From positions 1 through 56,998 of the forward strand of contig NHDL02000001.1 in the NCBI GenBank assembly GCA_002167555.2: DNA of 56,998 nt, in the 5' to 3' direction. Each line of letters begins with the position of its first letter. Position 1 is the first letter of the stretch. Both the position numbers and the translations under genes were made by a program. The stretch is from Deltaproteobacteria bacterium TMED58 (lineage in GTDB: Bacteria; Desulfobacterota_D; UBA1144). This document shows positions 24,175 through 49,879 of this stretch, piece after piece. Below the pieces are notes generated by a model. The model saw nothing but the letters and a program-made list of their open reading frames with translations. It searched no databases and had not been told where the DNA came from.

Positions 24175-24246
24175 GGCCGTGTAGCTCAGGGGTAGAGCGA
24201 CGCTCTCATAAGGCGTATGTCGGAAGTTCGAATCTTCCCACGGCCA
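24175..24246 (+). tRNA. tRNA with CAT anticodon (Met or lysidine-modified Ile2; not resolved)
   Basis: Full cloverleaf: acceptor GGCCGTG/CACGGCC, anticodon stem ACGCT/GGCGT with loop CTCATAA, T-arm GGAAG-TTCGAAT-CTTCC; no encoded CCA. Confidence 0.92.
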
Positions 24247-46888: not shown

Positions 46889-46918
46889 TTGCTTTTTATT
46901 TTATTTCAATGATATAAT
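46889..46918 (+). promoter_or_regulatory. sigma70-like promoter TTGCTT-18 nt-TATAAT for leader/rhodanese operon
   Basis: -35 46889-46894, perfect -10 TATAAT 46913-46918. Confidence 0.7.
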
Positions 46919-46935
46919 CTAAAGGTCGTCATTTA

Positions 46936-47008
46936 ACTCTAATTGCAGCGACTCAAAATAATTGCTAAATAGAGTAAGGGCGTTGTTCAATGTCCTTTCT
47001 CTTTGAGT
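46936..47008 (+). ncRNA. Structured 5' leader RNA (unnamed) with nested and mutually exclusive stems
   Basis: Hairpin 46971-47002 (14 pairs/wobbles with one U.U, GUUC loop); ACTCAAA 46951-46957/TTTGAGT 47002-47008; ACTCTA 46936-46941/TAGAGT 46970-46975. Confidence 0.5.
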
Positions 47009-47033
47009 TACAAATATATTTTTGGAGTTTGTT

Positions 47034-47123
47034 ATGGTTGAAATAATAAGTGTATTGCATGCTTGCCTTGCTGACACTTGTTGTTGCAACTTTACAAATT
47101 CGTGTTGTTGTAACTACAAATAG
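47034..47123 (+). CDS. Polycysteine leader peptide, 29 aa: MVEIISVLHACLADTCCCNFTNSCCCNYK
   Basis: ATG at 47034 with GGAG SD at 47024-47027 (6-nt spacing), TAG stop; two CCC triplets; upstream of sulfurtransferase. Confidence 0.65.
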   Translation: MVEIISVLHACLADTCCCNFTNSCCCNYK

Positions 47124-47189
47124 TACTAGTTATAAATTTAAAATTTAATTTTTTTCTAGTCTTTTTTAAAAGCTAGATGGAGGAGTAAG

Positions 47190-48032
47190 ATGGCAGAATA
47201 TAAAAATCCAGAATTATTGGTTTCAACTGATTGGGTTCTTGAAAATAAAGATAAATCAGGAATTAAAATTGTTGAGTCTAATGAGGATATCCTTTTGTAT
47301 GATATTGGTCATATTGAAGGCGCAATAAAATTAGATTGGGAGACAGAGCTCCAAGACAATCTAATTAGAGACTATATTGATAAGGAAAATTTTGAGAAAC
47401 TTATGTCATCAAAAGGAATTTCACCTGATGATACTATTGTTTTTTATGGTGATAAAAGTAACTGGTGGGCTTGTTACGCTTTGTGGACATTTAAAATCTA
47501 TGGCCATGCAAAATGTATAATTATGAACGGTGGTAGACAAAAGTGGATTGAAGAGAAAAAACCTTTAACTAAAGATGTACCTTCTCTTGAACCGACAGAT
47601 TATAAAGTTTCAAAAGTAGATTTAGGAATTAGAGCGTTTAGGGAAGAAGTTAAAGAGCATAGTGCATCTTTGGGTGCATTGATTGATGTTCGATCACCGA
47701 AAGAATTTTCGGGCGAAATGCTTCACATGGAGGCATATCCTCAGGAGGGAGCTTTAAGAGGTGGTCATATACCTAATGCTAAGAGTGTTCCTTGGGCTAC
47801 AGCCGCAAATGAGGACGGAACATTTAAATCCGCAGATGAACTAATTGAAATTTATCAAAATGGTGCAGGATTGAAACCTGATGATGATGTTATAGCTTAT
47901 TGTAGAATAGGTGAAAGATCTTCGCATACATGGTTTGTACTTACTTATTTGCTTGGATACAATAGTGTTAAAAACTATGATGGTTCATGGACAGAATGGG
48001 GAAATCTTGTTCAAGCACCTATTGAAAAATAA
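47190..48032 (+). CDS. Thiosulfate sulfurtransferase (tandem rhodanese)
   Basis: Two rhodanese domains; active loop [30 protein letters not shown]. Confidence 0.93.
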
Positions 48033-48043
48033 AGAGGCTGGAT

Positions 48044-48469
48044 TTGACAAAAGATAAACAGGAATTGATGGATTTTATTCTTGATCATTATGAGAACCCG
48101 AGAAATTCGGGTTTTCTAAGCGATGAGAAAGAAACACATTCATGTGATATTTTACAAAATGGTGGGAACCCTGGCTGTGGAGATATTGTTACCATTTGTT
48201 TAAAAATTGAAGATGACATAATTACTGATTTTAAATTTGAAGGAGAAGGGTGCATAGTAAGTCAAGCTGGAACATCAATTATTTCAGAGGTTGTCTTGGG
48301 AAAGTCTACTAAGGAAATAATGAATATGGGGCCAGAGATTATTACTGATATTATTGGTGAAGAGCTAGCACTTTCAAGGCCAAAATGCTCCACTTTGGGG
48401 ATTTCAACAGTTAAATTAGCGATAAAAGAACTAGAAAAAATTGAAACTAAGAAGCAAGCTTCAAGCTAA
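48044..48469 (+). CDS. Iron-sulfur cluster scaffold, IscU/SufU (NifU N-terminal) family
   Basis: ILDHYENPRNSGFL, NPGCGD, GEGCIVSQAGTSI, RPKCSTLGI: three cysteine ligands. Confidence 0.9.
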   Translation: MTKDKQELMDFILDHYENPRNSGFLSDEKETHSCDILQNGGNPGCGDIVTICLKIEDDIITDFKFEGEGCIVSQAGTSIISEVVLGKSTKEIMNMGPEIITDIIGEELALSRPKCSTLGISTVKLAIKELEKIETKKQASS

Positions 48470-48529: not shown

Positions 48530-49879
48530 ATGACAAAAAAAAATGGAAAATCAAATGGCAAGGTAAATTATGAGGCTGCACTTAAATATCCTTTATTTGA
48601 AGCAATCTTTAATAGAAGGTCTAGAAGATTTGGACTAGGAATGGAATTGCCCTCAGATAGCACATTAGGCTATAAGTCTGAAATCGATCCGGTCCCTTTA
48701 ACTGAGTTCCAAGAAGCAATGTTGGTATGGGCTGGAACAGGACTAACAGGATTATGTTTAGCTGATTTACCACCTGAAAATGGGATTGATTTACTCTGTC
48801 AATGGACTGGTAGAACCTGGCCTTCTGCATGTAATAATCATGGAACAGAATTATTTTTTACTAACGATAGTGGATTGTATTATGTAGATGTCAAACATAT
48901 GCTCCCTAAAGATAAGGAGCTAGACGTATTTTTTAGGATGAATGTAAATGATAAAATCGAAAGATTGTTAGAGCTATATCGAGAAGGTTTAGTTAAGTTA
49001 GAAGATGGTAGAGCAAATCTGCCAGATAAGATGCCAGGCCTCTTTGACTTTAATCAATGGAATACAAATAAGCCTGGAACTACAACTTTTATACCAGTAA
49101 CAGATATTACGGAAGAATATCTTAATCTATTAACACTTTATTGTAGCAGTACATATGCATTCAATATTTGGGATGAAAAAAATAATTGCTCTTGTGGACA
49201 GGACAAGTGGATAGCTGAAGGGAGAATTAAAGAAGAAGTTAAAATGTCTTTATATGACCTTGAAGTTAGAATATTAACCGGTCTCAATGTCGAACAAGCA
49301 TTTATCTGTCAAAATATGTCCTTAGCGCTACAAGCACTAGGTCTTGGTGGCTGGACATTTACAGGCCTTATTCCTAGGTTTACCCTAGGATCAAACCCTG
49401 AGCTTTTTAAGGGTCTTGGATTCAGGTTTGAGCAGCCAAAATCTGGCCCTACAAGACCTGTAGGCAAGGACGGAATTTTTGAAGGATATTGCCCTCCTTA
49501 TTATAAAACAATGTCCGATGCATTCGATAAAATGGATGAACATAAATGGGCTGCTTGGGACAGCAAAAAACCTTTTCCATATGAAGAGCCTGATAAGCAC
49601 TTAGTTCAAGCTCCAAGACCTACAGATACAACAAATGAAATTGTTAAGTCCGTAGCAGATTATATTTATAATACTTATGGCTCATTTCCTGCATTTGTTG
49701 ATCCAATGTATATGAGATTAGTTTTTCAAGCGCAGAATCTTGATCTAGATTTTTATGACAAATATTATCCACCTGGATCTTATACAGATCAACATGTAAA
49801 TACATTTAAGTATTTTCATCCAGATAAAGAAAACCCATATAAACAAAAACCAGAAAAAAAGCATCCCTGGGATAAATAG
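48530..49879 (+). CDS. Large (449 aa) nitroreductase-fold-like protein, unknown function
   Basis: IFNRRSRRFGLGMELP, PLTEFQEAMLVWAGTGLTGL, QNMSLALQALGLGGWTFTGLIPRF resemble nitroreductase motifs. Confidence 0.55.
   Translation: MTKKNGKSNGKVNYEAALKYPLFEAIFNRRSRRFGLGMELPSDSTLGYKSEIDPVPLTEFQEAMLVWAGTGLTGLCLADLPPENGIDLLCQWTGRTWPSACNNHGTELFFTNDSGLYYVDVKHMLPKDKELDVFFRMNVNDKIERLLELYREGLVKLEDGRANLPDKMPGLFDFNQWNTNKPGTTTFIPVTDITEEYLNLLTLYCSSTYAFNIWDEKNNCSCGQDKWIAEGRIKEEVKMSLYDLEVRILTGLNVEQAFICQNMSLALQALGLGGWTFTGLIPRFTLGSNPELFKGLGFRFEQPKSGPTRPVGKDGIFEGYCPPYYKTMSDAFDKMDEHKWAAWDSKKPFPYEEPDKHLVQAPRPTDTTNEIVKSVADYIYNTYGSFPAFVDPMYMRLVFQAQNLDLDFYDKYYPPGSYTDQHVNTFKYFHPDKENPYKQKPEKKHPWDK

Follow-up and report, generated by a model that had tools for sequence, protein, structure and literature searches.

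Does the short cysteine-rich open reading frame (ORF) that stands directly in front of a sulfurtransferase gene in Deltaproteobacteria bacterium TMED58 sense cysteine, and if so, does it act alone? The ORF lies in a 56,998-nt stretch of contig NHDL02000001.1 (the window), and an earlier note on this DNA, made from its letters, had read it as a candidate cysteine-responsive attenuator of the genes behind it.

A cysteine-rich ORF before a sulfurtransferase gene

The ORF and the genes that follow it are arranged as listed here.

47024-47027, + strand: Shine-Dalgarno sequence GGAG of the leader ORF, 6 nt 5' of its ATG and complementary to 47095-47101
47034-47123, + strand: poly-Cys leader ORF of 29 codons, with Cys clusters at 47079-47087 and 47103-47111
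47190-48032, + strand: two-domain thiosulfate/3-mercaptopyruvate sulfurtransferase of the CysA2/SseA type (PF00581, two domains)
48044-48469, + strand: NifU/SufU-like Fe-S scaffold (PF01592; SufU model TIGR01994 below its cut-off)

Direct translation of 47034-47123 gives MVEIISVLHACLADTCCCNFTNSCCCNYK and a stop codon and, together with the coordinates, confirmed what the earlier note had described, namely 29 codons with an ATG, a GGAG at 6-nt spacing, Cys at 7 of the 29 residues, and two Cys-Cys-Cys triplets with Asn directly after each run. The stop codon is separated by 66 bp from the ATG (47190) of the gene named there as a thiosulfate sulfurtransferase, an assignment that also stood; the protein has full-length matches to the solved structures PDB 3hzu (SseA) and 3aax (putative thiosulfate sulfurtransferase), and its best named match, at 69% identity, comes from a Candidatus Dadabacteria contig. 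The scaffold gene said to come next was found, as a NifU/SufU-like gene at 48044 that is likely co-transcribed with the sulfurtransferase gene. After it, at 48530-49879 (+) of the window, a 449-aa protein without a Pfam or NCBIfam match is encoded, which also occurs beside the sulfurtransferase in another family of the phylum (~75% identity; L023, L029).

When the leader was shuffled 3,000 times with its dinucleotides preserved, an ORF with two CCC triplets never appeared. The pattern TGYTGYTGY occurs 116 times genome-wide in any frame, and at the roughly 30 of these 116 sites whose surroundings were inspected, the other in-frame CCC short ORFs all lay in coding regions.

The family comprises 14 genomes in five genera, ~1.0 Mb in size and AT-rich, and its members are probably marine bacteria with small genomes; marine Dadabacteria are streamlined, with ~1.2 Mb (PMC8115339), and we consider Dadabacteria the likely affiliation. 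Within the genus the ORF was kept in all five genomes examined, with position and length unchanged, and the four others (G001-G004) carry the 29 codons with CCC...CCCNYK in the same place. Met1 is the sole residue common to the five sequences across codons 1-14, no change is seen at Thr15, at the six clustered Cys, at Asn22 or in the final three residues Asn-Tyr-Lys, and indels are present in the non-coding DNA that flanks the ORF. The comparison of relatives that the earlier note had proposed came out in its favour: the Cys runs are kept while other positions drift, and no indel falls inside the reading frame within the genus. A sister genus (G008) has a diverged ORF, MLSIFNLKVENLCCFNISNSCCCSFK, ending in ...CCFNISNSCCCSFK; before the sulfurtransferase gene of the three remaining genera no such ORF was found, and the Cys leader is confined to two of the five genera. 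No convincing Cys leader was found before the cysS and PALP genes of the family or before 80 sulfurtransferase homologues from other lineages, and an exact-pattern scan of viral contigs found nothing. On the evidence of this comparison, the reading of the ORF as a putative cysteine-responsive leader is well supported.

A SAM-II-like RNA element 5' of the leader ORF

The leader is most conserved 5' of the ORF, at GTCGTCATTTAACTCTAATTGCAGCGAC and the hairpin after it. A covariance model built on this RNA stretch (R1) matched 30 copies in 14 of the 14 family genomes, all but one with E < 1e-11; in the 44 other genomes of the phylum the R1 element was not found (58 genomes were searched in total, the phylum-level and class-level sets being identical). 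Compared with the SAM-II family of Rfam (RF00521), the 30 copies scored up to 35.8 bits (25.2 for the window copy), and none of them reached the gathering cut-off of 36 bits. RF00521 on its own gave 30 hits over the 58 genomes, with E values down to 8e-7 per genome, 27 of them on R1 elements. The other three (L238, L242, L243), in another family, were not located 5' of relevant genes and were taken as chance hits. The sole Rfam match at gathering level within the window is a tRNA gene at 24175-24246 (+).

46925-46974, + strand: SAM-II-like aptamer (RF00521, 25.2 bits; 30-copy alignment), with the pocket nucleotides UUU, UUGC and GCUAAA within it (by mapping to the positions in PMC3764141)
46925-46929 and 46948-46952, + strand: aptamer helix P1, GTCGT with GCGAC, 100% paired in 30 of 30 copies
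46937-46940 and 46971-46974, + strand: pseudoknot, CTCT with AGAG, the aptamer loop L1 containing ATTTAAC (30-copy alignment)
46971-47002, + strand: hairpin P3, with the inner stem 46976-46984/46989-46997 (covariation)
46971-46974 and 46999-47002, + strand: outer pairs of P3, AGAG with CTCT, mutually exclusive with the pseudoknot
47005-47014, + strand: linker GAGTTACAAA 3' of P3, near-invariant in the 30-copy alignment

P3 has the clearest comparative record, with seven pairs changed on both sides in 37 cells, a count of cells that none of 500 shuffles equalled; the covariation was also seen in a six-sequence alignment. P1 consists of five pairs, one position of which varies between U-A and U-G among the 30 copies. 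In the pseudoknot CUCU faces AGAG, GGAG or AGGG and 96.6% of the cells of the 30-copy alignment are paired, the changes being one-sided and thus supportive rather than compensatory; P1 and the long-range pairings are nearly invariant, varying too little to give covariation. The linker GAGTTACAAA may pair with either of two complementary stretches, TAACTC in L1 and TTGTAACT in the last Cys/Asn codons.

Positions within the element were assigned through what we take to be the crystallised SAM-II sequence. This mapping agrees with the numbering of PMC3764141, in which U10-U12, U20, U21, G22, C23, G42, C43, U44, A45, A46 and A47 are fully conserved. All 13 of these pocket nucleotides are identical in 27 of the 30 copies, the window copy included; the exceptions are A47G in two copies before sulfite reductase genes and one copy that misses the 3' half. 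At position 8, a G in SAM-II, 29 copies have C and one has G; the triple G8-G42-C23 is highly conserved but lies outside the fully conserved set (PMC3764141). Because this conserved G8 is C here, we call the element SAM-II-like, with SAM as its putative ligand.

Sixteen copies, from two genera, are followed by Cys-rich leaders of 21-33 codons (with ends such as ...NLCCINQSSSCCCN, ...HCLPLSNSCCCNN, ...APCCCCCN and ...STCCCLSNSCCCNYK), the ORFs of which start ~106-113 nt into the element (77 nt in one decayed copy); the Cys count rises to 9-11 in two leaders, and five Cys are consecutive in G008. Six of these leaders precede sulfurtransferase-NifU genes, six precede assimilatory sulfite reductase-CysD-CysN, and four precede a gene of the 56-kDa selenium-binding-protein type (SBP56/methanethiol-oxidase-like, PF05694), which scores below the cut-off of the NCBI oxidase model. 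One oxidase-type leader (L207, G000:C6:127197-129700) has behind it, after the SBP56-like gene, a 203-aa membrane-like protein without a family match and a thioesterase-superfamily protein. Neither the element nor a Cys leader was found at sulfite reductase genes in the other genera, or at the oxidase-like gene in the other genera and in G004, a 77% complete assembly with only two copies (before the sulfurtransferase and sulfite reductase genes). In the G003 copy before the oxidase-like gene (L216, G003:C13:35664-35736) the 3' half of the aptamer is lost and the Cys runs of the leader are broken, a joint decay which suggests that aptamer and Cys leader work together.

Fourteen copies, in 13 of the 14 genomes (two in G008), lack a leader ORF and are followed at 105-113 nt from the element start by the ATG of a threonine-synthase-like PLP enzyme with a similar Shine-Dalgarno sequence; this shared start position and Shine-Dalgarno sequence argue that the start site of the leader is used. 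In L206 (G000:C6:36306-37650) and the 13 further copies the element stands directly before the gene, whose product has an N-terminal Cys-rich ribbon. The two G008 copies (L219 on C20, L220 on C14) are near-identical in element and gene and represent a duplication or an assembly artefact. The enzyme may make homocysteine from phosphohomoserine, and a role of the riboswitch-linked gene in methionine synthesis is possible, given that the genome of the window carries another threonine-synthase-like gene (442 aa). Near +113 of L206, L210, L215 and L219 the enzyme starts with MSNSCVVNL or similar, which resembles the leader end SNSCCCNYK. Duplication of the 5' region of the threonine-synthase-like gene may have given rise to the leaders.

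For the earlier note, the consequence is that a Cys-responsive leader peptide gained support from the comparison (16 leaders before three sulfur operons) and was at the same time an incomplete account of the locus, as it missed the SAM-II-like part, the other operons with such leaders and the related RNA that stands, without a leader ORF, before the threonine-synthase-like gene.

Leader structure and a proposed two-input mechanism

The promoter-like boxes and the structures between the ORF and the operon are as follows.

46889-46918, + strand: putative promoter with a -35-like TTGCTT (46889-46894), an 18-nt spacer and a -10 box TATAAT (46913-46918)
47108-47135, + strand: helix of TTGTAACTA (47108-47116, the last Cys/Asn/Tyr codons) with TAGTTATAA (47127-47135, after the stop), from the consensus fold computed for nine leaders of the sulfurtransferase and oxidase types
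47155-47177, + strand: hairpin TCTAG..CTAGA immediately 5' of the Shine-Dalgarno sequence of the gene, with no U-tract after it
47178-47192, + strand: ribosome-binding site GGAGGAG and ATG of the sulfurtransferase gene

Among five relatives, three share the -10 box TATAAT and the other two have TATACT and TACACT. We infer a transcription start near 46925 from the boxes themselves, since a consensus promoter scan did not list the TTGCTT/TATAAT pair, its -35 box being too weak.

The leader folds 5 sd better than its shuffles, and the comparison supports three structures in it: the pseudoknot, P3 and the hairpin before the operon ribosome-binding site. The last of these shows three pairs changed on both sides among six genomes and recurs in the sister leaders; for the sulfite reductase leaders, a consensus fold of the RNA beyond the ORF showed no structure with support. 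In 12 of 15 leaders the codons before Cys cluster 2 were among the top three windows of complementarity to the leader Shine-Dalgarno sequence, which is suggestive. When a ribosome was modelled at Cys cluster 2 rather than at the stop, the cost of opening the operon start was lower in six of six genomes, by 0.4 kcal/mol (G004) to 6.8 kcal/mol (G000), so that the effect has the expected direction but is small in some genomes, the start being mostly paired in every modelled ribosome state. RNAalifold also found the mRNA 5' end paired to the Shine-Dalgarno sequence and AUG of the sulfurtransferase gene (p ~0.02 in most genomes). We do not take this pairing as the main mechanism, for two reasons: its 5' strand belongs to the aptamer and is kept equally before unrelated gene starts, and a C-to-G change weakens it in the oxidase-type copy of the window's genome.

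Our main reading, to which we assign a probability of about 0.7, is that translation of a cysteine-sensing leader peptide is controlled by a SAM-II-type riboswitch, so that the ~265-nt leader would be a two-input sensor of sulfur supply. Its proposed order is the SAM-II-type aptamer, the short ORF with clustered Cys codons and the ribosome-binding site of the operon. A simple switch could lie in AGAG 46971-46974, for which the pseudoknot strand and CTCT 46999-47002 are competing partners. At high SAM the aptamer would bind its ligand and the pseudoknot would form, taking the strand that otherwise extends P3; the altered pairing near the downstream Shine-Dalgarno sequence would then reduce initiation at the next ORF, i.e., the enzyme in the threonine-synthase-like RNA and the Cys leader in the sulfurtransferase RNA. 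At low SAM ribosomes would enter the leader ORF. With plentiful Cys-tRNA they would run through it, and the downstream fold would keep the operon start poorly used; with scarce Cys-tRNA they would stall at the Cys clusters, the RNA between Cys cluster 2 and the operon Shine-Dalgarno sequence would refold, and the operon would be translated. Expression would thus peak when SAM and cysteine are both low. We infer the direction of each step by analogy with SAM-II switches (PMC9373788) and mycobacterial leaders (PMC4633059, PMC9031893).

The final step is placed at translation in this scheme, as control there is more likely given that there is no intrinsic terminator (hairpin and U-tract) between the leader ORF and the sulfurtransferase gene; the sole terminator-like hit of the leader is P3, upstream of the ORF. 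Cysteine-responsive control of transcription, in which stalling in the ORF would block Rho or an unrecognised terminator, is in our view rather improbable. It has been proposed for mycobacterial cys leaders (PMC1262725), many SAM-II switches control transcription (PMC6061858), and an interplay of Rho with ORFs under riboswitch control is known from M. tuberculosis (PMC12810186); the missing hairpin and U-tract argue against it, with the proviso that Rho sites are not recognisable by sequence here.

Cys-tRNA might also regulate alone, the 5' element then being a remnant or spacer that came from the threonine-synthase-like leader and has lost SAM sensing. The RF00521 scores just under gathering, the change of G8 to C and the A47G of the two sulfite-reductase copies would fit such a loss, but the 13 pocket nucleotides are all kept in 27 of 30 copies, the pseudoknot is kept in all but one, and in G003 the aptamer decayed together with the Cys runs; we consider a lost SAM response unlikely. 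Still harder to reconcile with the comparison is a SAM-II riboswitch working by itself, with the ORF as a translated decoy or a standby or coupling ORF and its Cys codons set by RNA pairing (UGUUGUUGUA with parts of the leader). Two pairings do involve Cys cluster 2: the cluster is complementary to the aptamer, with shuffle p values of 0-0.004 in the individual genomes, and the end of the cluster is complementary to the bases that follow the stop codon. Cys cluster 1, however, has no conserved pairing partner and yet stays Cys in the genus, two leaders go up to 9-11 Cys and the G008 run to five, the enzyme that starts at the equivalent position of the sister RNA has no Cys run, and all three regulated operons are sulfur-related, which makes this explanation very unlikely. 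Finally, it is highly improbable that the ORF encodes a functional micropeptide whose Cys residues serve metal or redox binding and which is only by coincidence co-regulated with sulfur genes: Cys pairs and triplets could bind metal and short Cys-rich peptides exist, but the remainder of the peptide varies within the genus, the distance between the Cys clusters is not constant (G008 has a single run of five) and every such ORF lies in cis in the leader.

If the two-input reading is true, a streamlined genome of ~1 Mb would coordinate its use of sulfur in a compact manner, and a single mRNA would seem able to monitor two end products of sulfur metabolism ahead of gene expression. The logic lends itself to simple reporters, as there are 16 leaders across three kinds of operon and the sister RNA without a leader is a natural control. 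More tentatively, at slightly less than even odds, we suggest that this is a naturally evolved two-input RNA gate that turns sulfur operons on only when SAM and cysteine are both low, and that it may have spread within one family as the SAM-II leader of the threonine-synthase-like (possibly homocysteine-forming) gene was duplicated to three more sulfur operons.

Comparison with known systems

Riboswitches and amino-acid leader peptides are each known separately; for one leader that combines them, with the amino-acid-sensing peptide placed after a riboswitch whose ligand lies further down the same pathway, we found no report in open PMC papers. Cysteine leaders have been described before mycobacterial cysA2 and other genes, Bifidobacterium cbs and Rhodobacterales cysS (PMC1262725, PMC4633059, PMC8632094), and the present leaders would extend them beyond Actinobacteria and Rhodobacterales, the groups reported in the open literature surveyed. 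SAM-II, a repressing riboswitch (PMC9373788), is recorded in the same literature from Proteobacteria, Bacteroidetes and marine metagenomes, and the SAM-II-like RNA is extended here to a phylum without mention there.

The mycobacterial precedent drawn on by the earlier note was apt, as one such poly-Cys leader precedes cysA2, a relative of the present sulfurtransferase gene (PMC4633059). The leaderless polycysteine short ORFs of mycobacteria (Canestrari et al. 2020, as cited in PMC13236596 and PMC9031893; earlier, PMC1262725 and PMC4633059) share with the present ORF the clustering of Cys codons near the 3' end, the position directly 5' of a sulfur operon with a related target (cysA2), and the lack of an intrinsic terminator before the operon. 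They lie at the extreme 5' end of the mRNA, whereas the present ORF, judged by the start site predicted from the -10 box, does not: in 15 of 16 leaders a Shine-Dalgarno sequence and ~106-113 nt of conserved structured RNA with the SAM-II-like aptamer precede the ATG. The phylum is another one as well, and there are two Cys clusters.

With SAM-II (RF00521; SAM-II long loops, RF01726) the element has in common the H-type pseudoknot, the identical pocket (UUU, UUGC, GCUAAA) and sulfur/methionine genes downstream, and it differs from it in scoring under the Rfam gathering cut-off, in having C and not G at position 8, and in preceding a leader ORF. The uORFC-8-2 motif of Rhodobacterales cysS (PMC8632094) likewise combines a leader ORF with tandem Cys codons and a cysteine-related target; it has an intrinsic terminator and no riboswitch is described for it, whereas the present leaders have a riboswitch-like aptamer, no intrinsic terminator and targets in sulfur assimilation. 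Unlike in a trp-type transcription attenuator, the hairpin before the gene is followed by a Shine-Dalgarno sequence and not by U's. A riboswitch and a short uORF before a gene are also found in the B12 and Mbox riboswitches of Mycobacterium tuberculosis, the uORFs of which are not described as amino-acid sensors in the accessible text of the sources (PMC11260477, PMC12810186); the uORF here carries Cys runs, and therefore two metabolites of one pathway would be read.
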